Virus record (IMG/VR): IMGVR_UViG_3300043427_003560
Location: 1 to 40,123 of that record
Reading direction: 5' to 3' (one strand)
From: a virus
DNA: 40,123 nt
The position numbers were made by a program, and so were the translations under genes. The notes under the pieces were generated by a model, which was not told the origin of the DNA, searched no databases, and saw only the letters and a list, made by a program, of their open reading frames with translations. Shown piece by piece: positions 1-39,224 of the stretch; the stretch's first letter is position 1, and the number at the start of each line of letters is the position of its first letter.

Positions 1-1676
1 AGCCTGGGGTCTGCCAACATCGGCAGATCCGGCGCCTGTGGATGCGGGATCTGCTGCAGATTGGAAATGAGCGACAGGAACGTCCCAATGCTTTGCTGGG
101 TGGCCTGCGCCATTCGGAATGGATAGCCATTAAGCATTCCGCTGCGTTCTTCGTCGGTTTTATCCGGGAAGAGGTACCGCAGTGCTTCGATGCTATTGAC
201 ACCGAGCTCCTGCAGGTTCCGTACGACAATGCTTGAGTTCAGTATATCGTCCGTGGACTCCTCAAAGACCGGTCCCATCCAGCGCCACTCGACTTTGCGG
301 TCGCCATCGGGGATGAGGCCAACGACACCCGGGGGCATCTGACGGTTCTGCACCGCTTCGCCGATGCGGGCCTCGACCTCGCTGTCATACTTGGCGCGGT
401 CATCTTGGTACTTGCGGATGGCATCCTCGAACTGCGCGGGATCCAGTTGCTCCCTGATGGGAATCGGCGGCGGCTGTAGTCCAACGGCAGCAGCAAACGA
501 GTCGCGGAAGATGCGCTCTTCGTGAAAGATGATCAGCCCCAGCAGTTTGCAGAGCCCATAGGTCAGCAGGCCACGGCACTTGCGCGCTGCGGTCGTCGCT
601 GCACGCCCATAGAGTGACTTGATCTCGTACGCTGTGGCGCCGGTGCTGATGCCCAGCTCGTCCACCCCGCCCAGGGCATTGCGCAGCTCTTCGCGGTATT
701 GACGCGCGTAAAGATTCTGGTCTCCGGAAACCGCATCGGGAGTGACGTATCCCAACCGGTCCGTCGGCTCCAGGTTGGCAATCACCCGGGGCACGCGTCC
801 GGCTGCACCACCACCGCCGCCCATCGGTGCACTGACGCGCGTGGACGGGCGATTCGCGGCATAGAAGCCAGCCTGCGAGCTGATTGTCGGCCGGAACTCA
901 TCGGCATCGCCGCTTTCAATAATGTCGCTCTTGGGACGACTCGAGTAGAACGTCGGGTTGCCGAAAAACGTAATGTTTGAGCGGATTGTCTTGACGAGGT
1001 CGTCATGAACAATGATGTGATCGCTCAACCAGTCGAACTCGCCCGTGGCATCCATTCCGGTCGAGCGCATCATGTTGAAGGCTTCGACCGCTGGAATGAA
1101 CCCCAGACTGTTTGCCAGTGTCCGTGTGCTCTGCGGCGCGTAGGTCAGCGTTGCGGCGTTCACCTCAAACGAAGGCTTTTCACTGGTGATCGACTCAAGG
1201 ATCGTGTCGCGGCGGACCTTGAGCTTCACGTACCGCAATGAGCCGCCCTCGCCCGGCATCATGGCGCCGAGTCCGAAGCTGTCCCGCACCGAGAAGCTGT
1301 AAATCAGCTCAACCTCTTCCAGCTGCCCTGCCGGGTCGTAGTACGCGCGGTAGTTATCCTTGTTGAACCACATCAGCCGGTAGGTCTCGCCCACCGGCCG
1401 GAAATACCAGAGGCCCTTGCCGTCGATCAGAAAGTCATCAATGATTCCCTCGAGGCGAGCGTCGATCTCGTTGTCGCGGATCAACGAGTTCAGAAAAATC
1501 TTGCGGAATCCGTAGGTGTCCTGCGCTGGGTAGAACTCGATGCCTTGCCGCATCATGAACATCCGCATCTGCGCGAGATGCGAGTTCACGATCATCGTGT
1601 CGGTCCCGCTGCTGCCGTCCCGGTTGCGGGCGGCCTCTAGGATGCGACGAAACCGTTCGGTCTTGGGCTGGCTCAT
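1..1676 (-). CDS. Portal protein (partial, C-terminus beyond window)
   Basis: An uninterrupted minus-strand reading frame of at least 558 codons starts at the ATG complementary to 1674-1676 and runs off the left edge. The protein starts MSQPKTERFRRILEAARNRD. It contains stretches such as YRLMWFNKDNYRAYYDPAGQ and a Gln-rich C-terminal part near the window edge (FRMAQATQQSIGTFLSLISN). This mix of charged helices and beta wing is usual for portal proteins, which form the dodecameric DNA channel at the capsid vertex. It starts 9 bases downstream of the terminase stop, and terminase-then-portal is the standard order of packaging genes. No Shine-Dalgarno sequence is seen. The product is inferred mainly from position and size; another large head protein is possible. 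Confidence 0.65.
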   Translation of the reverse strand, partial: MSQPKTERFRRILEAARNRDGSSGTDTMIVNSHLAQMRMFMMRQGIEFYPAQDTYGFRKIFLNSLIRDNEIDARLEGIIDDFLIDGKGLWYFRPVGETYRLMWFNKDNYRAYYDPAGQLEEVELIYSFSVRDSFGLGAMMPGEGGSLRYVKLKVRRDTILESITSEKPSFEVNAATLTYAPQSTRTLANSLGFIPAVEAFNMMRSTGMDATGEFDWLSDHIIVHDDLVKTIRSNITFFGNPTFYSSRPKSDIIESGDADEFRPTISSQAGFYAANRPSTRVSAPMGGGGGAAGRVPRVIANLEPTDRLGYVTPDAVSGDQNLYARQYREELRNALGGVDELGISTGATAYEIKSLYGRAATTAARKCRGLLTYGLCKLLGLIIFHEERIFRDSFAAAVGLQPPPIPIREQLDPAQFEDAIRKYQDDRAKYDSEVEARIGEAVQNRQMPPGVVGLIPDGDRKVEWRWMGPVFEESTDDILNSSIVVRNLQELGVNSIEALRYLFPDKTDEERSGMLNGYPFRMAQATQQSIGTFLSLISNLQQIPHPQAPDLPMLADPR

Positions 1677-1685
1677 TGCTCTATG

Positions 1686-3242
1686 TTAATCCCAGTCGAC
1701 TTGGGCGGATCCGCGTCGCATCAGGCCCTGCACGGTCAAATTGAGACTATCGGCGCAGTCATCATGTGGGCTATGGCCGAAGTTGACGACCTCGTCGATC
1801 ATCTGCCCGAAGTCGCGGTACTTGTTGAAGATTACCCGCTTGGTCTGGAACAGGCCCATCATCCCGCGCAGCCGTGCCAGCTTGTCACCACGGAAGCCTT
1901 TCACGGGGGATACCGTCAAGTTGTAGAGCTCCCATTCCTTCAGCAAGATCCGCTTGAGGTCGCCCTCGAAGCTCTTCTGATAGGCGACGATTTCTGGCCA
2001 GATCGTCACGGGGGAGCTGGTGGGGAAATACTGGCCGTCATCGTTGACACCGAGCAGGTTCCACTCCATCAGCAGTTCGCAGAGTGCTTCGACCTTTTCG
2101 ATGTTGCCCATCGACTTCATGCGCCGGTAATCGATGATGTAGCACTTGTCATCGACGCGACCCCCAAGCGTGAAGACCGTCCAGTCATTCCGCTCGCCAA
2201 TACCAGCAGACAGGTCGATGCCGACGCCCATCATGTCGTAGACATCGGGGACTTCGCCTCTGACAAACAGCTCGGGGCTGATTCCAAGCTCCGTCGACCG
2301 AATCGGCTGGTTGAGGTACTGATAGGAGAAAGCGACTCGGTCTTCGGACTGGAGTTTTAGTAGGTACTTCAGCGACCACTGCTCCTGCCAGTACGAACGC
2401 GGCCTGCCGTCCTCGCTGTACTGCAGCGCAGCCTGAACGATGACCTTCCAGCCCTTGCGCTCGACGAATGTCGTGGTGAACAGGTCGTCGAAATGGAAAC
2501 GGGTACCCAACGCGATCGCACGCGCCCCCTGAAACATCGTTGGCACGATAACGTTCGTCCAGTTCGCCTCCATTTCCCGGCGGATGTCGGGGTTCGCGAT
2601 GGCAGCGGCGGATTTGATCGCGTCATCTACCACGATCAGGTTGCTGCGCTTCGAGGTAATCGTACCCTTTAGGCCAGCGCAAGCCAATGTGAAAGCGTCT
2701 TCACCTCTGACGTCGATTCCTGCATGCTCCCAGTCGATGCTCCAGAGCTCGTCCGATGTCTTCGCCTTTGAGAGGCGAACCATCGGGAAAATCTCCTGGT
2801 ATTCACTTGAGAGAATCGTGTTTTTGATTGCTGCGCTCTTATTCCGTGCTACGTCAACGTTGTATGAGACATACATAATGCGCAGCAATCGTTTCTCGAT
2901 TGCATGCCTTCCAATCAGCCAGGCTATCAAGAACCCTAGGCAGGTGCTCTTGGCGCTACCCCGCGGAGCAAGAATGCACGTATTTGGACCAGCAATATCC
3001 AGCAGATACTCATTGCTCTGCCCCGTGATCAATTGCTTGTGCCACTCCTTCATATGACGAGCTGGTGGCTTGCCCATCAGCTCGCAGAAGTACGCAAAGT
3101 TCTCCCGCGCCTTAATCACATGGGGCGGGATAACCTCCGGGACGGCGATCTCGACGATGGCCTCGACCGGCGGTTTCTTGATTCCCTGAGCCGCAAGGCG
3201 CGCCGTGCGTTGGCGTGCCAGGGCGATCGATGCGCCTGCCAT
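1686..3242 (-). CDS. terL: Terminase large subunit (packaging ATPase/nuclease)
   Basis: A 518-residue protein of normal TerL length. The ATPase domain has a Walker A (APRGSAKST, residues 92-100), a Walker B (LIVVDD, 202-207) and a coupling segment GTRFHFDDL (246-254). The C-terminal RNase H-like nuclease starts around GIDLSAG (341-347, D343) and ends with HDDCADSLN (493-501), which supplies the late metal-binding aspartates. TerL docks on the portal, pumps DNA into the procapsid and cuts the concatemer. It lies 44 bases after the probable small terminase and just before the portal gene. The ATG start at 3242 gives the first in-frame Met; no Shine-Dalgarno sequence precedes it. Confidence 0.93.
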   Translation of the reverse strand: MAGASIALARQRTARLAAQGIKKPPVEAIVEIAVPEVIPPHVIKARENFAYFCELMGKPPARHMKEWHKQLITGQSNEYLLDIAGPNTCILAPRGSAKSTCLGFLIAWLIGRHAIEKRLLRIMYVSYNVDVARNKSAAIKNTILSSEYQEIFPMVRLSKAKTSDELWSIDWEHAGIDVRGEDAFTLACAGLKGTITSKRSNLIVVDDAIKSAAAIANPDIRREMEANWTNVIVPTMFQGARAIALGTRFHFDDLFTTTFVERKGWKVIVQAALQYSEDGRPRSYWQEQWSLKYLLKLQSEDRVAFSYQYLNQPIRSTELGISPELFVRGEVPDVYDMMGVGIDLSAGIGERNDWTVFTLGGRVDDKCYIIDYRRMKSMGNIEKVEALCELLMEWNLLGVNDDGQYFPTSSPVTIWPEIVAYQKSFEGDLKRILLKEWELYNLTVSPVKGFRGDKLARLRGMMGLFQTKRVIFNKYRDFGQMIDEVVNFGHSPHDDCADSLNLTVQGLMRRGSAQVDWD

Positions 3243-3286: not shown

Positions 3287-3796
3287 CTACTTTTCTCCCT
3301 CAAGCTGGGCCCAGACCGATTCGAAGGCAGCTTCCAGGGCAGGGATGACCTCCTCGTTGCCGCGGAAAATGCTCCTGAGCTGCCGCATCACCGCATCGGC
3401 ACCGGACAGAACCAGGCCGCGCCGATCCGTGGAGCGTGTCATTCGCTCCACCTCGGTCAGGTGACCACGCAGCTCCTTGGACAGATGGGCGATCTTTGTC
3501 GCCGCATCGGCTGGCTTGACCAGGTCCAGCTGGACGTGCTCTCGAAGAAACGCAATGTCCTGCTCCAGTTTGCTGATCTCAGTCAGCAAGAGCTCGCGGC
3601 GATTCAGCTTGCTGTAATTCTTGCGGACCCATTTTTCGAGTGCCGTGAAGCTATCCTTGTAGCCCAGCACTCCGGCGTACAGCCAGATCTCGTACACGGA
3701 ATACGTGTGCTGAACGTAGTCCAGGAAGCCCTCTCGCTTGTCGCTGTCCAACGCGGCAAGAAAGAGCTGGATCGGGCCCTCTTCAATGACTGCCAT
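3287..3796 (-). CDS. Probable terminase small subunit
   Basis: A 169-residue, mostly helical protein. An N-terminal segment around YSVYEIWLYAGVLGYKDS could be a helix-turn-helix. It is followed by a charged coiled-coil stretch (LTEISKLEQDIAFLREHVQL) and a basic region with MTRSTDRRG. DNA-binding helices plus an oligomerisation coil, a size of 140-180 residues and a place immediately before terL fit a TerS, which recognises the packaging site and loads TerL. The ATG at 3796 overlaps the TGA of the preceding gene by one base (TGATG), so translation is probably coupled; an in-frame GTG lies one codon upstream. The assignment rests on context and predicted architecture, not on a decisive motif. 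Confidence 0.55.
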   Translation of the reverse strand: MAVIEEGPIQLFLAALDSDKREGFLDYVQHTYSVYEIWLYAGVLGYKDSFTALEKWVRKNYSKLNRRELLLTEISKLEQDIAFLREHVQLDLVKPADAATKIAHLSKELRGHLTEVERMTRSTDRRGLVLSGADAVMRQLRSIFRGNEEVIPALEAAFESVWAQLEGEK

Positions 3797-5730
3797 CACC
3801 CAAAGAACCTCGCTCCCACTCTTGCCACCTGGCCCCGGGCGTCGGCACGAGCACGCAGCAGCTGGCTGGTCCTTTCCTGCTCGTTCAGTCTTTCCTGCTC
3901 GCCTTGGGTGACGTATCCCAAGCGCGTTTGCTCGCCAGTTTCGCGGATTCCCGCCCTGTTCTCGACACCCTGCGCTGAAATGTTCAGTCGGTCTTGTTCG
4001 CCCTGGGAGCCGATACTGAGTCGCTGCTGCTCGCCCTGGGTGACGTATCCCAAGCGAGACTGTTCGCCCTGGGTCCTCGCCAGGGATCGATCTTCGACGC
4101 CCTGCGCGGAGATCCCTAGGCGCTGTTGCTGGCCCTGCGTCTCATAGCCAAGCCTGCTTTGATAGCCCTGGGTTGCGATACTCTGTCGATCTTGCTCGCC
4201 CTGCGCGGATATACTCAGTCGCTGCTGCTCACCCTGTGTGCGGGACAGGGCACGATCTTCGGTGCCTTGAGCGGAAATGCCAAGGCGCTGCTGCTCGCCT
4301 TGTGTGACATATCCCAGGCGGGACTGTTCGCCTTGGGTTGCTGCAAGAGCGCGATCCTGCGCACCCTGTGTCGTAATGCCTAGACGTTGTTGCTCGCCCT
4401 GGGTTTCCGCTAAGTAGCGATTCTGCTGCCCTTCCGCAATGTAACCGAGTCGCTGCTCTTCTCCTTGTGCCCTTGTAAGCCCAATCTGGCCCTGGTTGAC
4501 TAAGTTTTGCAGGCCGTAGGCACCGGCCTGCTGAATGTTCGCAATATTCTCGGCGCTTCTTGTCTGGAGTCCAGCGACGTCAACTGCACCCTGATTCTGC
4601 GCTTGGATGTTGGCCAAGCTTCCCTGATTGACTAAACCCTGGAGATCGTATGCGCCACGTTGCTGAATGCCTGCAATATTCTCTGCACTCCGCGTCTGCA
4701 GGCCTGTAACCTCAACAGCGCCTCGATTCTGCTCTTGGATGTTCGCGAAAGCGCCTTGATTTACAAGACTTTGGACTTCCACGGCTCCCTGCCGTTGAGT
4801 ATTCGCAATATTCTCTGCGCTTCGTGTCTGAAGTCCAGTGACATCGAATGCCCCCCGATTCTGGGCCTCGATGTTTTGGAGTGAGCCCTGGTTTACGAGT
4901 CCTTGAACGTCATAGGCGCTTTGCCGTTGAGTATTCGCAATATTCTCTGCGCTTCGTGTCTGAAGCCCAGTTGACTCAATTAAGCCCCGATTCTGCGCTT
5001 CAATATTTGCAAGTGCACCCTGATTGGTTACTCGCTGCAGATCTTGCGCGCCCTGGCTCTGAGCCTGAATATTTGCGAGCGACCCCTGGTTTGCTGTTTG
5101 CTGTAGCGAAATTGCGCCCTGCGTGGTGATTCCCGCGACCGCCTCTGCGCTTCGTGTTTGTTCGCGCGTATTTTCAAGTGCCGCTTGATTATTAACCGTG
5201 CTCAGCCTTTCCTGAATCTGCCCCTGTTGCGCGGCAATCTGCGTGTTGTAACCAAAGTCTTGCTGCTTGAGCCCGCTAATCATGTTTGCGGTACTCTGAT
5301 TCATCGCGTCGTTGTAGGCAATCGCCTGCCCCGTGCGCACAGATCCGACAGCGCTGTCAACCTGCGCCCCTACAATCTGATTCGCGATTGTCGGATTATC
5401 GCCATACTGATCAGCAAGTGTTGCGAGCTGATTGTTGCCAGCTTGCGCATACTGGCCTGAAACCGTTGCAGGAACGTAAGGCGCGCTTGCCTGCTGGTTG
5501 TTATCAACTGCTGTCTGGGCTGGCGTCGACTGCTGGGGCTGGGGCTGGGGCTGGGGCTGGACTCGTGTCAGTTGCGCGACATCCTTATCACTGTCAAGGC
5601 TTTTGATCCCAGCTCTCTGCATCGCCGCATCAACGGCGCGAACGTCATTCTCGCTGTTGAAATTCGAGATCCCCAGCGCCCCTGCGGCTTTCTGGTAGTA
5701 AGGATTATTGAGCTTCTGCTGCGTGGTCAT
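3796..5730 (-). CDS. Giant hendecad-repeat structural protein
   Basis: 644 residues. Residues 1-57 look globular and are followed by a PQ-repeat linker (QPQPQPQPQQ, about 58-67) and a Gln/Asn/Ala-rich part to about 190. From 191 to 619 the chain can be cut into about 39 consecutive 11-residue units with no gap. The first 21 units include four 44-residue super-repeats (QNRGxxxxTGL, QTRSAENIANx, QxxGAYxxQxL, VNQGxxxNIxA). The last 18 follow QGEQQRLGISA or QGEQDRxLxxT. Hendecads favour a right-handed coiled coil, so this is probably a long helical rod. A basic tail (RARADARGQVARVGARFFG) ends the protein. It sits between terS and further virion genes, which suggests a virion fibre, internal-core or measuring protein. 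I do not recognise a named family. Confidence 0.7.
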   Translation of the reverse strand: MTTQQKLNNPYYQKAAGALGISNFNSENDVRAVDAAMQRAGIKSLDSDKDVAQLTRVQPQPQPQPQQSTPAQTAVDNNQQASAPYVPATVSGQYAQAGNNQLATLADQYGDNPTIANQIVGAQVDSAVGSVRTGQAIAYNDAMNQSTANMISGLKQQDFGYNTQIAAQQGQIQERLSTVNNQAALENTREQTRSAEAVAGITTQGAISLQQTANQGSLANIQAQSQGAQDLQRVTNQGALANIEAQNRGLIESTGLQTRSAENIANTQRQSAYDVQGLVNQGSLQNIEAQNRGAFDVTGLQTRSAENIANTQRQGAVEVQSLVNQGAFANIQEQNRGAVEVTGLQTRSAENIAGIQQRGAYDLQGLVNQGSLANIQAQNQGAVDVAGLQTRSAENIANIQQAGAYGLQNLVNQGQIGLTRAQGEEQRLGYIAEGQQNRYLAETQGEQQRLGITTQGAQDRALAATQGEQSRLGYVTQGEQQRLGISAQGTEDRALSRTQGEQQRLSISAQGEQDRQSIATQGYQSRLGYETQGQQQRLGISAQGVEDRSLARTQGEQSRLGYVTQGEQQRLSIGSQGEQDRLNISAQGVENRAGIRETGEQTRLGYVTQGEQERLNEQERTSQLLRARADARGQVARVGARFFG

Positions 5731-5799: not shown

Positions 5800-6471
5800 T
5801 CAACCTCGGAATAGTGCGGCAGCCGTCAGGCCGAGGCCAGCAATTGGCATGACAAGATTGTTCAGGAAGCCCCGAAGACCACTGTTCTGGCTTTGCTCCA
5901 TTGCCAGCAGTTGATTCCTGTAGTCAATATCCGACTTCATCGCATTCTCCTGAATGTCGAGCATTCGATTACCAATCTGGCCTCGCAGCTCTCTGTTTCC
6001 GGCTTCCATCCCCCGCTGCAGTTCGAACGCGGGGCCCATGACCTTATCGCCGTAAGTCCCGTAATTCGTGACCAGGTTCGTGCGTTCCTGCTCCGCCCTC
6101 TCCGCTTGAAGGCGGCTTTGGGAGTCGGTCAGTATTGGCAGCCGGTAACCATAGGATCTGTCCTGTATGTTTGTCCTATTCTCCAGTCCGCGAGTGGCCG
6201 CGGTTATGGCATTTGCAGTGGCTTCTGCGGTGAGTTGATTATTAGCAAGGCCTATCTGCCGAATCTCTTGCAGATTCCGCTCTAACTGCTCTTGCGGAGT
6301 CAGCGGCTTGTCCCGCTTAAGGCTTGCGGTCAGGTTGCCTTGGGCCAGGTCATATTGCTTCCTGCGCTCTGTCCCCAGGGCCGGGCGTCCGCTAAGGCCC
6401 TCTGTGATCCTTCCCAGAACTCCGTTGAGCAAGTCTACCGCCTGTTCACGAGGGCCAAATGATGCGCTCAT
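5800..6471 (-). CDS. Helical virion-associated protein with C-terminal hydrophobic segment
   Basis: 223 residues, strongly helical and rich in Gln, Arg and Glu (for example PQEQLERNLQEIRQIG and RSYGYRLPILTDSQSRLQAE). The last 25 residues contain a hydrophobic stretch (FLNNLVMPIAGLGLTAAALF) long enough to cross a membrane, and the protein ends in RG. Helical body plus C-terminal membrane-active segment is common in internal virion or ejection proteins. It lies between two other structural candidates of the minus-strand late operon. The ATG at 6471 is the first Met; the upstream 64 bases are short and non-coding. The function is inferred from context only. Confidence 0.5.
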   Translation of the reverse strand: MSASFGPREQAVDLLNGVLGRITEGLSGRPALGTERRKQYDLAQGNLTASLKRDKPLTPQEQLERNLQEIRQIGLANNQLTAEATANAITAATRGLENRTNIQDRSYGYRLPILTDSQSRLQAERAEQERTNLVTNYGTYGDKVMGPAFELQRGMEAGNRELRGQIGNRMLDIQENAMKSDIDYRNQLLAMEQSQNSGLRGFLNNLVMPIAGLGLTAAALFRG

Positions 6472-7603: not shown

Positions 7604-7999
7604 TCAACCGAATCCACTGCCAACAGCTTTCAAGCCAGCGCCAATCAGTGGCCCGACACCGGGAATAAAGCTTGCGGCGGTTCCAGCTGCACCGAATAGT
7701 CCACCCAGGAAGCCGCCGCCCTGTCGCCTCTTCTGCGCCCGGCGCTCGGCATCAGCTTGCTGCTTCCAGCCCTCTGCGTAGGCCAATGCTTGCGCGCGTT
7801 GCCCCGCCTGCTGGATTGCGCTCCCGGCCAGTTGCGTCATGCCTTCCTGGCTGCGCTTGCGGCTGGCCTCAAGGGCATTTGTGGTTTCGTTGCCTCCAAA
7901 GACGCCATCAAAGGACTGCGCATTATTACTGAACGCGTCCATGTAGTCGTCGTCGTTGCCCCCAAAGCCGCCGCTGAACTTGCCGTAGTTGAATGCCAT
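7604..7999 (-). CDS. Gly-rich hypothetical virion protein
   Basis: 131 residues. The N-terminus is rich in Gly, Asp and Phe (FSGGFGGNDDDYMDAF), the centre is a basic amphipathic helix (EGWKQQADAERRAQKRRQ), and the C-terminus is a glycine-zipper segment (GGGFLGGLFGAAGTAASF) ending in GSGFG. It shares the helix-plus-Gly-zipper plan with its neighbours at 6987-7574 and 8002-8358, which suggests related roles in the virion. The ATG at 7999 follows two bases after the preceding gene. No family recognised. Confidence 0.5.
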   Translation of the reverse strand: MAFNYGKFSGGFGGNDDDYMDAFSNNAQSFDGVFGGNETTNALEASRKRSQEGMTQLAGSAIQQAGQRAQALAYAEGWKQQADAERRAQKRRQGGGFLGGLFGAAGTAASFIPGVGPLIGAGLKAVGSGFG

Positions 8000-22054: not shown

Positions 22055-23045
22055 CCGGCACGTCGAGGTGATTGGCGCCGTGGCTCGCCACTGCATCCGC
22101 CTCACCGCCTGGATGCCCGACCGCTGGGGCCTTTGCGAGTTCGCCGATCTCGATTCCGAGGATGCCGAGGAGCGCTGGATCGAGGAAAACTGCAATGGCT
22201 GTAAATACAACTTCGACACATACGACGAGGAGTCGTCCATCAATCTCGACGGCATCCACGACGATGACAGCAACCAAGCTGTCTTGGTGCGCTACGAATC
22301 CTGCTGCCCATACGGGCGCGGAGAAGGATTTGACTGCGTTCCCTTCCCCTGCCCCGCTGGCCGCTACGGACCGGACTCGAGCTACTACTCCGAATATGAC
22401 GGCCCTATGCCGCCCATGGCCTACAGCGTCGACCTCAATCCATTCACTGGTCGCGCGCATTACTCATACGCCTGGATGCAGGCTTGCTTTCCCTCTAATC
22501 TCCTCAATCCCAGACTGACTCGCATCTATCAGTCGATCAATACATTCGATGACCACAGGGTCTGCTGGGGCGAAGAGAACAGCACACCGGAATCCCTGCC
22601 CGCTGTCGTCGCCACCTACTGCGATGCCAGGGCCAACGCCGACCTCTTGCAACCTGAGAGCTTCAGCCAGTACCGCACCATGGTCCGCAAGGATCCGCCG
22701 ATCACGGCCCCAGCTGGCATCGCCATCGGCCCTGGCTACGACGCCGCATTGCTGGTTTCCGCTCAGCACCATCGCACCGCCTATCTACTTCTGCGCGCTT
22801 CTGGCGTGCCGGCCAATGACGGACACATCGTGGCCGGACTCAGGCACCACGACGCCAACAGTGTCAAGGGTTTCGCTACCGATCCCGACACTGATGGCAA
22901 CTATTGGTTCTTCACCCTCGACCCCACCGGCTACGTAGACGGCTCCCAAGCACTCCTCCTCGGCCAACTCTCTACCTCCACCACCACGGCATGTACATCG
23001 ACAGCACCCTCGTCATCGGCGCTGGCGGCTCCGGCGGCCAGTTGA
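21972..23045 (+). CDS. E2-like conjugation protein candidate (Cys-rich)
   Basis: 357 residues from ATG 21972 (an upstream ATG at 21942 would add ten). It contains a Cys-rich region (CNGC at 74-77, CCPYGRGEGFDCVPFPC at 111-127) that may bind zinc. An aromatic and Pro-rich part (YSVDLNPFTGRAHYSYAWMQ) is followed by HRVCWGEE, with C198 as candidate catalytic Cys placed as in Prok-E2 proteins (short motif with C-W/L-G). The last ~20 residues are encoded in the overlap with the E1 gene and are Ser/Thr-rich. Its role as E2 is inferred from position between JAB and E1 and from this motif; the fold is not proven. Confidence 0.5.
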   Translation: MTSLISPQTPPPVLIHPLPSHYLLASGSRHVEVIGAVARHCIRLTAWMPDRWGLCEFADLDSEDAEERWIEENCNGCKYNFDTYDEESSINLDGIHDDDSNQAVLVRYESCCPYGRGEGFDCVPFPCPAGRYGPDSSYYSEYDGPMPPMAYSVDLNPFTGRAHYSYAWMQACFPSNLLNPRLTRIYQSINTFDDHRVCWGEENSTPESLPAVVATYCDARANADLLQPESFSQYRTMVRKDPPITAPAGIAIGPGYDAALLVSAQHHRTAYLLLRASGVPANDGHIVAGLRHHDANSVKGFATDPDTDGNYWFFTLDPTGYVDGSQALLLGQLSTSTTTACTSTAPSSSALAAPAAS

Positions 23046-23701
23046 TTCCCTCGCTCGCCCGCCTACTTGCCTACCACCCCAACGCATCCTCCTCTGTCCT
23101 CATTGCCGATGGGGACAGCTTCGAGGCGCACAATCAAGAACGGCAACTCTGCGGCGCCGGGCAGATCGGCCGCAACAAGGCCGACGTCCTGGCTGAATAC
23201 TGCCGTGACATCGGTCTGACCCAGGTCACCAGTCTTGCTGACTTCCTGGACCGCCCCGCGATTCGCCGCTTAACGCAGCACGCCACCTGCCCCCTCGTCG
23301 TCACCACTGTTGACAACGACGCCACCCGTGCTGCCGTCATTGAGGTCCTTGAGAAGCGGGCTGACAGCAACTGGCTGCACGTCACCACCGGCAATGCCGA
23401 CAACTCCGACGGCCAATCCCGCATCTCTACCTCCACTCACTGGCATGGCGTCATCGCTGGCCAACCGGTTGGCATCTCACCCGCTCTGCTCTTTCCGAAT
23501 ATCGCTACCCCGTCTGACGCCATTCCCGCGCACGGCTCCTGCGCTCTCGCTGCTCCATCGGCTCCGCAGCTCATCAGCGCCAACGCACTCAGCGCTGTCA
23601 TGGCTCTGCTCGTGATCCAGAACCTGCTGGACGGACGCCTGGATTCCGTCACCAACTCGGCCTTCGCTAACGGCCGTTCCTTCAAGCTCACCCTTTCTTG
23701 A
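22991..23701 (+). CDS. ThiF/E1-type adenylyltransferase
   Basis: 236 residues, a minimal single-domain E1/ThiF protein. It has a Rossmann nucleotide loop GAGGSGG (residues 10-16), the acidic strand IADGDSFEAHNQERQ (D40, D42, N48, R51, Q52), the ATP-site Lys in GRNKADVLA (K63), and VDND (D108). C184 in HGSCALAAPSAPQLISAN sits where ThiF/E1 proteins carry the reactive Cys. It would adenylate the C-terminal Gly of the Ubl and pass it to a Cys. It starts at ATG 22991, overlapping the E2-like gene by 55 bases. Length and motifs match PRTRC-type ThiF proteins. Confidence 0.85.
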   Translation: MYIDSTLVIGAGGSGGQLIPSLARLLAYHPNASSSVLIADGDSFEAHNQERQLCGAGQIGRNKADVLAEYCRDIGLTQVTSLADFLDRPAIRRLTQHATCPLVVTTVDNDATRAAVIEVLEKRADSNWLHVTTGNADNSDGQSRISTSTHWHGVIAGQPVGISPALLFPNIATPSDAIPAHGSCALAAPSAPQLISANALSAVMALLVIQNLLDGRLDSVTNSAFANGRSFKLTLS

Positions 23702-26274: not shown

Positions 26275-26846
26275 GTGACATCCCCGATGCCGTTTCACCC
26301 GACCTGCTGCGATCCCTGCTCAAGCAGGACGACGCACCCGTCAGCAAGCTACTGCCCGAGCTCAATTTCGGGGATCGCTTTGGTGGGCCCTGCGACCTGC
26401 AGTTCGTCGTCAGCACGCTGATCGCCAAATCATCCAATGGCGTCAACCTCGTCCAGCTCATGATGACCGCGCTGCATCTCCTCTCAGAGATCGAGGCGCA
26501 GCTGAAGAGCCAACACGACCAGATGGCAGCTGGTGACGGGAGTTTTGCCTCCCTCAGTGCGGACGAGCGCGAGGTGCTTGTCCGTGTCGCTGATCGCAAT
26601 CACGGCTTTGTCCGCTCCTCTGTTCTGTCCCTTGAGCAGACGCTGGACACGTTTGCGCCAATCAGCAGTCAGCTCCGCATCCAGGAGCTGCTCAAACGGG
26701 GCACCGTCACCCCTGATGCCCGCATGCCTCTTGCGGAACTCCGCTCCATCCTCCTGGTCTCCGACGAGATCCTCGACTCACTCGAGATCAGCCGCGATGC
26801 CATGACGGCCTACCTCGCTAAATCCGAATCCATCAACACACCATGA
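26271..26846 (+). CDS. Hypothetical helical protein, second gene of DUF932 operon
   Basis: 191 residues, mostly helical (PDLLRSLLKQDDAPVSKLLP, VVSTLIAKSSNGVNLVQLMM, SEIEAQLKSQHDQMAAGDGS). ATGA overlaps join it to both neighbours, so the three proteins are probably made together and may form a complex. No catalytic motif visible. Confidence 0.6.
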   Translation: MSDIPDAVSPDLLRSLLKQDDAPVSKLLPELNFGDRFGGPCDLQFVVSTLIAKSSNGVNLVQLMMTALHLLSEIEAQLKSQHDQMAAGDGSFASLSADEREVLVRVADRNHGFVRSSVLSLEQTLDTFAPISSQLRIQELLKRGTVTPDARMPLAELRSILLVSDEILDSLEISRDAMTAYLAKSESINTP

Positions 26847-27895
26847 CCATCACACCAGCCACCGCCCCCGCCGCATCCACCAGCAAACTGACCGCTGCGG
26901 ACCGCAAACTCTTCCGCGGCACAGCAGCCGAGGTGCATGACTGGATGGACAACGAGGCCATCCTCCGCTCCATCGGCTGCAACTTCCAGGTCGAGCGCCA
27001 TCCCGCCCAGGTCTGCGATCGCACCTACCCCGACTGCCAGCTCTGGCTGCGCAGTGACAACCGTAACTACCTCGGCGCTTTCGGCAATCGCCGCCAAGTC
27101 ATCCAGCCTGCCAGTTTCGTTGACTTCTTCCGCTCCTTCTGTGCTGCCAGCGAGAAGCGCATCAGCCTCGATCTCGTCGGCACCCTCGACGGGGGCCGCA
27201 CGTTCTACATGGCTAGCAAGCTCAGCGGCAATAACCACGCCCTGCTCGATTCCACGATCGGCGGCGGCTACGGCGTCGGCGGCGGCCTGGACATTTCGCG
27301 CCAGGGCAGCAGTGCCTACATGGACAAACTCGACCGCACCGACTCGTGGCTGGTCGTCACCGATTACTACGGCGAATCTCTCTCGCCCAAGGCGGTGATC
27401 TTCAACAATGAGCTCGTCTGCTCCAACGGACTGTCCATCAAGGTCACCGACCAGCAGGTCAAGCTGACCCACCGCATCGTCCAGTCCTACGACGAGATCG
27501 CACAGGTCCTCGGCAAGGCGATCCAGCAAAGCGCCGCCTACAGCCGCATGAAGGATCGCATGCTCGAGATCCCCGTTTCCCATACCGAAGCGCGCAATGC
27601 CATCCGCGCCTTCTTCCGCGACCCCGACGGCCAGAGCCAGACGGTCAAGCGCCTGCAGCACATCTATGACTACGACCTGATCGGCGGCGATCTACCCACC
27701 CGGCAGGGCAATCTCTGGCGCCTCGCATCTGCGGTCACCCAGTACACCAGCCACGAGCGTGTTGGCGAGTCCGCCGGCTCCGGTGGTCGCACGCTGCGCT
27801 CTCAGCTCGAAGGCGCCAGGGCCCGCACGAACCAGCGCTTCCTGGCCTACCTGGAAGAGCAATTCGCTCCCAATGCCGAATTGGCGCTGGCCTGA
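26843..27895 (+). CDS. DUF932-family phage/plasmid protein
   Basis: 350 residues with the layout of the DUF932 family (phage/plasmid-like TIGR03299-type proteins): N-terminal segment with RNYLGAFGNRRQVIQPASFV, a beta core (RISLDLVGTLDGGRTFYMAS, DSWLVVTDYYGESLSPKAVI), the signature NNELVCSNGLSIKVTDQQVK and a helical C-terminus (LEGARARTNQRFLAYLEEQF). The family is common on phages and plasmids and its role is not established; DNA-related functions are suspected. Coupled to the two genes before it. A terminator follows. Confidence 0.8.
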   Translation: MTITPATAPAASTSKLTAADRKLFRGTAAEVHDWMDNEAILRSIGCNFQVERHPAQVCDRTYPDCQLWLRSDNRNYLGAFGNRRQVIQPASFVDFFRSFCAASEKRISLDLVGTLDGGRTFYMASKLSGNNHALLDSTIGGGYGVGGGLDISRQGSSAYMDKLDRTDSWLVVTDYYGESLSPKAVIFNNELVCSNGLSIKVTDQQVKLTHRIVQSYDEIAQVLGKAIQQSAAYSRMKDRMLEIPVSHTEARNAIRAFFRDPDGQSQTVKRLQHIYDYDLIGGDLPTRQGNLWRLASAVTQYTSHERVGESAGSGGRTLRSQLEGARARTNQRFLAYLEEQFAPNAELALA

Positions 27896-30038: not shown

Positions 30039-30058
30039 TGCACCACATCAGCTGTGCA
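30039..30058 (+). promoter_or_regulatory. TGCA-box leader motif, copy 9
   Basis: TGCACCACATCAGCTGTGCA, directly joined to the ATG at 30058, as copy 8 is at 29282. Confidence 0.7.
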
Positions 30059-30834
30059 TGTCTTTATCTGACACCCTGCTCAAGTTCGGCCACGGCAACG
30101 CCAAGCTGCCGAACACCACCATGACATTTGCCATTCCGGCTGGTCACACCTGCCCTGGCGCACTTCACTGCCTATCCAAGGCTGACCCTGGCACCGGCAA
30201 AATCCAGGACGGGCCGTACACCATCTTCCGCTGCTCGGCCGCCAGTGAGGAGACGCGTACTGCAGTTCGCAATGCCCGCTGGCATAACTTCCGCTTACTG
30301 GCTGGGCTCGACACGCCAGAGACTGTCGACCTGATCGAGATCTCCCTGCGCGCTCAGGTCCGTACCTATACCGAACGCGTCCGCTGGTTCACGTCGGGCG
30401 ACTGCTGGAGCACCACGCTCCGCAACGCCCTGATCCAGATCGGTCGCCGTCATCCGGAGATCCTCTTCTATCTCTATTCCAAGAACCTGCCCATCTGGCT
30501 CGAAGACGGTCGGCCCCTACCCCTGCCGGACAACCTCCTGCTGACCGCCTGTTGGGGTGGACGCTATGACTTCCTCCTGCAGGAAGGCATCTTTCCGCGC
30601 ACTGCTCGAGTCGTCGACACCTACGAGGAGGCTGCCGACCTGGACCTGCCGATCGACTACGACGATCGCCTGGCCTATTCCCGTACCCCCATCCACTTCG
30701 CGCACCTGGTTCACGGCACCCAGCCGTCAGGATCCAAAGCCGGGCGGGCCATCAGCGATCGCCGCAAGCGCGGCCTCTTCTCTGGTTACTCCGCCGGCAA
30801 GCGCCACCTGCCGTCGGTCCCCGTCGCACCGTGA
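30058..30834 (+). CDS. GP88-family phage protein
   Basis: 258 residues. The N-terminal half has the signature layout GNAKLPNTTMTFAIPAGHTC PGALHCLSKADPGTGKIQDG PYTIFRCSAASEE (Cys at about 32, 38 and 59), then RNARWHNFRLL. I recognise this as the phage Gene-product-88 family (Pfam GP88), which lacks a firmly known function; the Cys spacing could bind a metal or cluster. The C-terminal part is basic (SDRRKRGLFSGY). The ATG joins TGCA-box copy 9. The GTG of the next gene overlaps its stop (GTGA). Confidence 0.65.
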   Translation: MSLSDTLLKFGHGNAKLPNTTMTFAIPAGHTCPGALHCLSKADPGTGKIQDGPYTIFRCSAASEETRTAVRNARWHNFRLLAGLDTPETVDLIEISLRAQVRTYTERVRWFTSGDCWSTTLRNALIQIGRRHPEILFYLYSKNLPIWLEDGRPLPLPDNLLLTACWGGRYDFLLQEGIFPRTARVVDTYEEAADLDLPIDYDDRLAYSRTPIHFAHLVHGTQPSGSKAGRAISDRRKRGLFSGYSAGKRHLPSVPVAP

Positions 30835-39011: not shown

Positions 39012-39081
39012 GGGTCGGTAGCCCAAGGAGAGGCAGCCAGGACAACTGGAACTCAGTGCTGGTTCAAATCCAGCCCGACCC
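39012..39081 (+). tRNA. tRNA-like element with irregular anticodon arm
   Basis: GGGTCGG (39012-39018) pairs perfectly with CCGACCC (39075-39081), and GCTGG-TTCAAAT-CCAGC (39058-39074) is a canonical T arm including the TTC loop. A D-like arm GCC...GGC fits at 39021-39034. The region where the anticodon arm belongs (about 39035-39057) has the right length but no five-base-pair stem with a seven-base loop; only CCAG-GACAA-CTGG pairs. The element is therefore a degenerate tRNA, a tRNA mimic or an att-derived tRNA fragment. Confidence 0.5.
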
Positions 39082-39224
39082 CTTCCTCAGATTCTGACCT
39101 GATTCAGGCGCGGCGATTTGCATCACAACGTTGCGGTGGCTCTTCAGCGCCGGCTTGAGCTAGGTATTCCCTGGGTTCCCGCCCTCTTGTCTTCGTTACA
39201 TTATGAATCAGCGGCTGCAGCTGA

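Follow-up and report, generated by a model that had tools for sequence, protein, structure and literature searches.

In phages related to Synechococcus phage S-EIV1, a widespread lineage, the gene directly before TerS encodes a real core protein that is under selection and had so far not been annotated. It contains an array of 11-residue repeats (hendecads), and between relatives its length changes nearly always by whole repeats. Below we describe the array in one long member, follow the family through related loci and weigh what such a protein may do.

Source DNA and phage lineage

We analysed a virus record of 40,123 bases (hereafter the window), which is a fragment of an S-EIV1-like genome. 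The TerL of the window is 54% identical to that of S-EIV1, the next annotated phages being near 24%, and the gene order TerS-TerL-portal is common to the window, its relatives and S-EIV1, placing all of them in one S-EIV1-like lineage. TerLs 72-83% identical to the window's were found at 23 IMG/VR loci, and a wider TerL profile search yielded at least 540 related contigs in IMG/VR. S-EIV1 is given as a short-tailed phage (PMC7156551).

Several observations were made in passing. The contigs L060-L069, all with TerL relatives, are binned into MAGs of Euryarchaeota, Bacteroidetes, Acidimicrobiales and others, and these assignments are probably binning noise. The TerL of S-EIV1 (L001:19905-22445, KJ410740.1) appears to carry an intein-like insertion (CLVGDTMV...HNFIANGFNVLNC) that the window TerL lacks; inside the insertion, in another frame, lies a 319-residue ORF (L001:20488-21447) that is HNH endonuclease-like. 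Elsewhere in the window, ARAGORN reported a tRNA-Cys with the unusual anticodon ACA at 39012-39082, and the plus-strand genes at 22904-23701, 26843-27895 and 30058-30834 contain ThiF, DUF932 and GP88 domains.

Table 1. Features of the terminase region of the window and of the hendecad-array protein, in order of position.
Feature	Position	Strand	Basis or remarks
Portal-like gene	1..1666	-	Position, and resemblance to the long gene that follows TerL in relatives; continues past the window end
Terminase large subunit (TerL)	1686..3242	-	phrog_38, E 2e-72
TerS-like gene	3287..3799	-	Named by position and conservation beside TerL in all relatives
Hendecad-array protein	3796..5730	-	644 aa, coordinates include the stop codon; directly 5' of TerS
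Conserved C-terminal cap, residues 628-644	3799..3849	-	RADARGQVARVGARFFG; in relatives RADARGAIRSQGARFYG; invariant alignment columns
Array section B, residues 422-619	3874..4467	-	18 hendecads of QGEQQRLGISA type
Array section A, residues 191-421	4468..5160	-	21 hendecads; 44-residue super-repeats, hydrophobic period 3.66
Family core, residues 86-176	5203..5475	-	Alignments; in relatives ...NTGLAIAYNDAFLGSLGNYQ...LMGxEGAIARDL
N-terminal small helical domain, residues 1-56	5563..5730	-	AlphaFold2 pLDDT about 76-94, and alignment
Helical cassette protein, hydrophobic C-terminus	5800..6471	-	223 aa; upstream neighbour of the array gene
Cassette protein with glycine zipper and Gln-rich helix	6987..7574	-	195 aa; Gly-zipper_Omp in 1/14 members only

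A gap-free array of old, constrained copies

An earlier note on this DNA, made from the sequence alone, had placed the ORF at 3796-5730 on the minus strand and had divided residues 191-619 into 39 contiguous hendecads, first as 44-residue super-repeats and then as QGEQQRLGISA-type units. Our analysis agrees on the ORF, its 644 residues and the two-part layout. The 39 hendecads follow one another without an indel, and self-identity was 0.318 at lag 11 and 0.494 at lag 44, far above the maximum of about 0.15 in composition-preserving shuffles (n=2000); lag 7 stayed at background level. The super-repeats of section A are composed of the unit types VNQGSLANIQA, QNRGAVDVTGL, QTRSAENIANT and QRQGAYDLQGL, and TRF detected a period of 132 at 4673-4971 within this section. 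In section B, position 2 is Gly and position 6 is Arg in all units (18/18). The window array is devoid of Lys, Pro, Cys, His and Trp and contains 12-16% Gly. The hendecad phase runs on beyond residues 191-619, and 463 residues, or 42×11+1, separate residue 165 from the conserved RADARG end (residue 628). The N-terminal domain is shorter or missing in the alignments of several relatives.

Among the three 44-residue copies of section A that are closest to one another, pN was 0.15-0.19 and pS 0.57-0.84, and in section B four different codons are used for the invariant Gly and five for the invariant Arg. With the protein conserved and synonymous sites near saturation, the copies must be old and individually constrained. 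Their synonymous divergence led us to reject an assembly artefact or recent slippage as the origin of the array. An artefact is further disfavoured because long arrays recur almost unchanged in contigs of separate samples (353 residues in L041/L042; 822 residues in L117/L119).

The family before TerS

All relatives examined have, immediately 5' of TerS, a gene for a protein with hendecads, the conserved core and the C-terminal cap, or for a clade-specific equivalent with other flanks. The window protein belongs to this family by its core, its 11-residue array, its cap and its position. Lag 11 was the best internal repeat in 92 of the 103 distinct orthologues compared with 11/103 after shuffling. 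A lag-11 identity of at least 0.25 was reached by 91/103 orthologues and two shuffled sequences, as well as by 65 of 901 further ORFs in these loci; the majority of the 65 were marginal, low-complexity proteins elsewhere. With the motif applied here, a few family members had no clear hendecads.

Complete members of the 103-orthologue set range from 146 to 1233 residues. In the longest (L124:1473-5174), about 89 units follow one another in phase, and they are of a different type, rich in Asn and Gln (QLNAQNRGQLQ, QINAQGNQQFR). In S-EIV1 the orthologue is AHV82216.1, a protein of 82 residues annotated as hypothetical. It has the same position directly before TerS as the window gene but a minimal length, with about two units (ESGAQERETIG KGATEQRTSAE), and its C-terminal end resembles that of L054/L055. 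A 292-residue gene (L001:17383-18258) was rejected as the S-EIV1 orthologue, since it is AHV82216.1 that stands directly before TerS.

Length changes in whole units

In the window's clade, the distance from the core to RADARG took the values 45, 56, 67, 78, 89, 111, 144 and, in the window, 463, and was 1 mod 11 in 27 of 29 distinct sequences. In a distant clade, the distance from a conserved FA motif to the C-terminus varied from 71 to 984 residues and was 5 mod 11 in 10/17 distinct sequences. The nominal p values of 3e-25 and 4.5e-6 for these two counts ignore relatedness and are only a guide.

Large differences were found between close relatives. The pairs L017/L018, L010/L011 and L072/L075, at 99% TerL identity, are exactly one unit apart; L047/L074 (98.6%) differ by 7.00 units and L105/L135 (87.9%) by 47.00 units. 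The nearest relatives of the window by TerL (82%) measure 56 to 111 residues where the window has 463, and across all relatives the number of units runs from about 2 to about 90. The suggestion of the earlier note that the protein could be a length-setting element is strengthened by this wide variation in whole steps. Tandem duplication alone suffices to generate whole-unit steps, but it leaves unexplained why other indels are rare over long times. The protein might be a molecular ruler: by gain or loss of array units, the phages would adjust a helical DNA-delivery or virion structure one hendecad at a time (three turns, about 1.65 nm) across a range of about 2 to 90 units, with the angular register of its ends kept; we consider this conceivable, though rather unlikely.

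Predicted structure and hydrophobic pattern

An AlphaFold2 model of the window protein, built with 23 homologues, was all-helical, with a confident N-terminal domain and helices at residues 113-277, 299-370, 385-475 and 494-643. Confidence dropped below 60 around residues 270-390 and 470-500, and pLDDT in section B was about 80-89 from residue 510 onward. In the short homologue L010, one continuous helix (97-230) was predicted to pass through the hendecads. The models of both proteins support the long helical rod that had been proposed, and a helical protein rather than disorder or beta structure is what AlphaFold2 returned, with low confidence in parts. The proposed rod length of 64 nm is calculated correctly for a helix without interruptions, but the model of section A contains breaks at low confidence.

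The hydrophobic residues of section A peak at a period of 3.66, which is 11/3, with nothing at 3.5. Section B has its strongest peak at 5.5, the second harmonic. Here Leu7 and Ile/Tyr9 lie about 164 degrees apart on a helix; between them, Q1, Q4, Q5 and G8 face one side and G2, E3 and R6 the other. The first 11/3 harmonic amounted to 0.158 in section A and to 0.016-0.079 in section B and relatives, and the consensus units of three clades behave like section B. That the hydrophobic residues of section B and the family unit are so far apart is hard to reconcile with a simple two- to four-stranded core. The right-handed coiled coil claimed earlier for the whole array thus has to be narrowed: as judged from residue patterns, a classical core of this kind is supported for section A only, and in section B and the family unit the first harmonic is nearly absent. 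Tetrabrachion is a hendecad right-handed coiled coil, and coiled coils of its type share the 11/3 periodicity with section A, whereas section B and the family unit differ from them in having hydrophobic residues on two opposite sides and 12-16% Gly. It is a reasonable reading of the sequence that section B would be a helix with neighbours on both sides, as in a tube, sheet or bundle. Tested against permuted positions, no single set gave a significant second harmonic, which describes this two-sided pattern (p 0.10-0.21; 0.10-0.13 for the consensus units of the three clades). By eye, we recognised no transmembrane segment in the array protein.

Gene neighbourhood

The start codon of TerS overlaps the stop codon of the array gene (TGATG) in the window, and the two also overlap in relatives. 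The T7 ejection genes occupy a different gene position from that of the array gene. Neither the TerS-like nor the portal-like gene had a family match. The array gene closes an upstream cassette of genes for small proteins with glycine zippers, hydrophobic C-termini and Gln-rich helices. The cassette proteins tested gave no informative PHROG or Pfam match, and profiles of the cassette neighbours found only weak matches in the PDB. In two relatives, cassette proteins weakly match PHROG 'virion structural protein' families. A tail-fibre-type, chaperone-like C-terminal domain is present in full on a small glycine-zipper cassette protein (L059:503-1186) and in part on the cassette proteins L007:2656-3126 and L025:6047-6574; the window gene at 7604-7999 does not carry it. 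Where the neighbours had been described as terminase and ejection-type genes, the terminase part stands, with TerL framed by the TerS-like and portal-like genes; the term ejection-type has no family match behind it and reflects the glycine-zipper and hydrophobic character of the cassette.

Searches for known families

The array protein had no match in PHROGs or Pfam, including the Pfam leucine-rich repeats and ejection families, no Foldseek match with E<=0.001 in PDB and BFVD, and no match to known ejection proteins among the PDB sequences. Tblastn searches of 50,697 phage records with the 644-residue protein, the short homologue, two distant homologues and a consensus array revealed nothing relevant, although the BLAST low-complexity filter may hide arrays. 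With phmmer, residues 216-389 matched 4r58, a protein of 22-residue leucine-rich repeats (E 5.7e-6).

Discussion

We tentatively propose that the array protein is a putative internal virion protein that is ejected, and that its helix lines or braces a DNA-delivery conduit, a proposal made by analogy with the systems discussed below. During infection, several copies would exit the capsid of the short-tailed phage and assemble, one beside another, as part of a helical conduit or alongside it, and through this conduit the DNA would cross the cell envelope. Neighbouring copies would contact each other through L7 and I/Y9, the hydrophobic positions on opposite sides of the helix, and the passage would be lined by the Gln-rich face (positions 1, 4 and 5), much as the phiX174 H tube is lined by amide side chains. 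As each unit would add three helical turns (about 1.65 nm), the number of units would set the length of the conduit. The proposal draws on the glycine-zipper cassette, the short tail of S-EIV1, the amide-rich face and the parallels with phiX174 H and the T7 tunnel. The conserved position with the TerS overlap, the lag-11 repeats, the whole-unit lengths, the selection on the copies and the predicted helices also speak for it.

The H protein of phiX174, a decameric DNA-translocating tube (PDB 4JPP), resembles the array protein in its hendecads and its Gln-richness: the Gln-rich tube begins with consecutive hendecads (QKEIAEMQNET), and its lumen is lined with amide and guanidinium groups, N, Q or R making up 18 of the 23 residues that point inward (PMC7354561). 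However, H has only three hendecads followed by heptads, against 39 hendecads in the window protein, and belongs to a different kind of phage, a microvirus; for the window array, the inward faces are those that we infer. Homology to H was rejected, as the register-specific position score was not significant (p=0.31) and a profile search of PDB sequences found no H chain. Podophages eject proteins that build a periplasmic tunnel, and T7 gp15 with gp16-N makes one, according to the part of PMC8954989 drawn on here. The same part of that source presents gp14/gp15/gp16, the DNA ejectosome, as helical proteins of a short-tailed phage, as here, and describes no hendecad array in them, unlike in the array protein; they have no family match to it.

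Other findings weaken the conduit proposal. A straight helix would give rods of about 3 to 150 nm, and a conduit spanning one periplasm should not vary so much. No match to H or to ejection proteins emerged from PHROGs, Pfam, PDB or BFVD, a Gly content of 12-16% is high for a stable helix, the two-sided hydrophobic pattern was not significant and no transmembrane segment was recognised by eye. Given a length range far beyond the need of one periplasm, an external fibre and a packaging accessory stay serious rivals.

An external fibre, whisker or spike stalk would be bound to the particle by its N-terminus and consist of a hendecad coiled-coil shaft, variable in length as in many fibres, and a small C-terminal cap. 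This would account for the wide length variation between close relatives, and the 11/3 periodicity of section A is that expected of a hendecad coiled coil; the L059 cassette gene with its tail-fibre-type domain points the same way. However, the most conserved part of the protein is its C-terminal tip of only about 17-20 residues, contrary to what a receptor-binding tip would show. In the family-type unit the hydrophobic residues do not form one core stripe, and PHROGs and Pfam revealed no chaperone or receptor domain in the array protein. We regard a fibre as possible but doubtful.

Alternatively, the protein could be an assembly or packaging accessory made together with TerS, such as an internal rod or scaffold-like partner for head, portal or motor, with the array length tuned to the particle. 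Over >100 loci its place immediately 5' of TerS is maximally conserved, and in the window and relatives its stop codon overlaps the TerS start codon. Overlapping codons are common in phage operons, however, and a change of up to 47 units at 88% TerL identity is faster than that of head or motor proteins, which makes an accessory of this kind unlikely.

Perilipin 4 (Plin4) forms a giant 3-11 helix from many 11-mers without indels, of low hydrophobicity and rich in Thr, Gln and Gly (PMC5889406). The indel-free 11-mers over hundreds of residues, the weak hydrophobicity and the abundance of Thr, Gln and Gly in the array protein recall it, and a giant amphipathic helix of this type might coat or cross a host or viral membrane. 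Lipid binding, however, needs one hydrophobic face. Section B has no such face, the first harmonic being 0.016-0.079 there and in relatives and 0.158 in section A, and the array of this phage gene contains Arg instead of Lys. We consider a membrane helix improbable. A non-helical solenoid with 22- or 11-residue coils, of the leucine-rich-repeat or beta type, is more improbable still: the 4r58 match and a Leu7/Ile9 alternation that could suit a strand are in its favour, but AlphaFold2 predicts helix in section A, section B and the short homologue, the match reflects a common 22-residue spacing in low-identity repeats, and a section B-type repeat profile finds no such structure. Slippage changes tandem repeats by whole units whatever their structure, but functionless low-complexity filler or a metagenome assembly artefact is hardly credible for a gene that is present in all relatives, whose copies are conserved in protein and near saturation at synonymous sites and whose long arrays recur nearly identical across samples.

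Helical virion-type proteins with 11-residue repeats have precedents; new are the range, the register and the speed of the change in unit number. S-EIV1-like phages are common in lakes and oceans, as their at least 540 TerL relatives in IMG/VR attest, and to our knowledge their virions have hardly been studied. A core gene that varies in length by a factor of about ten or more between close relatives, in 11-residue steps, amounts to a natural length-variation experiment, and pairs of phages that are 1, 7 or 47 units apart let one ask which physical dimension follows the number of units. If the array protein does form or brace a conduit, the principle of the H tube would then apply to a tailed dsDNA phage as well, and a modular design rule for helical tubes would follow.
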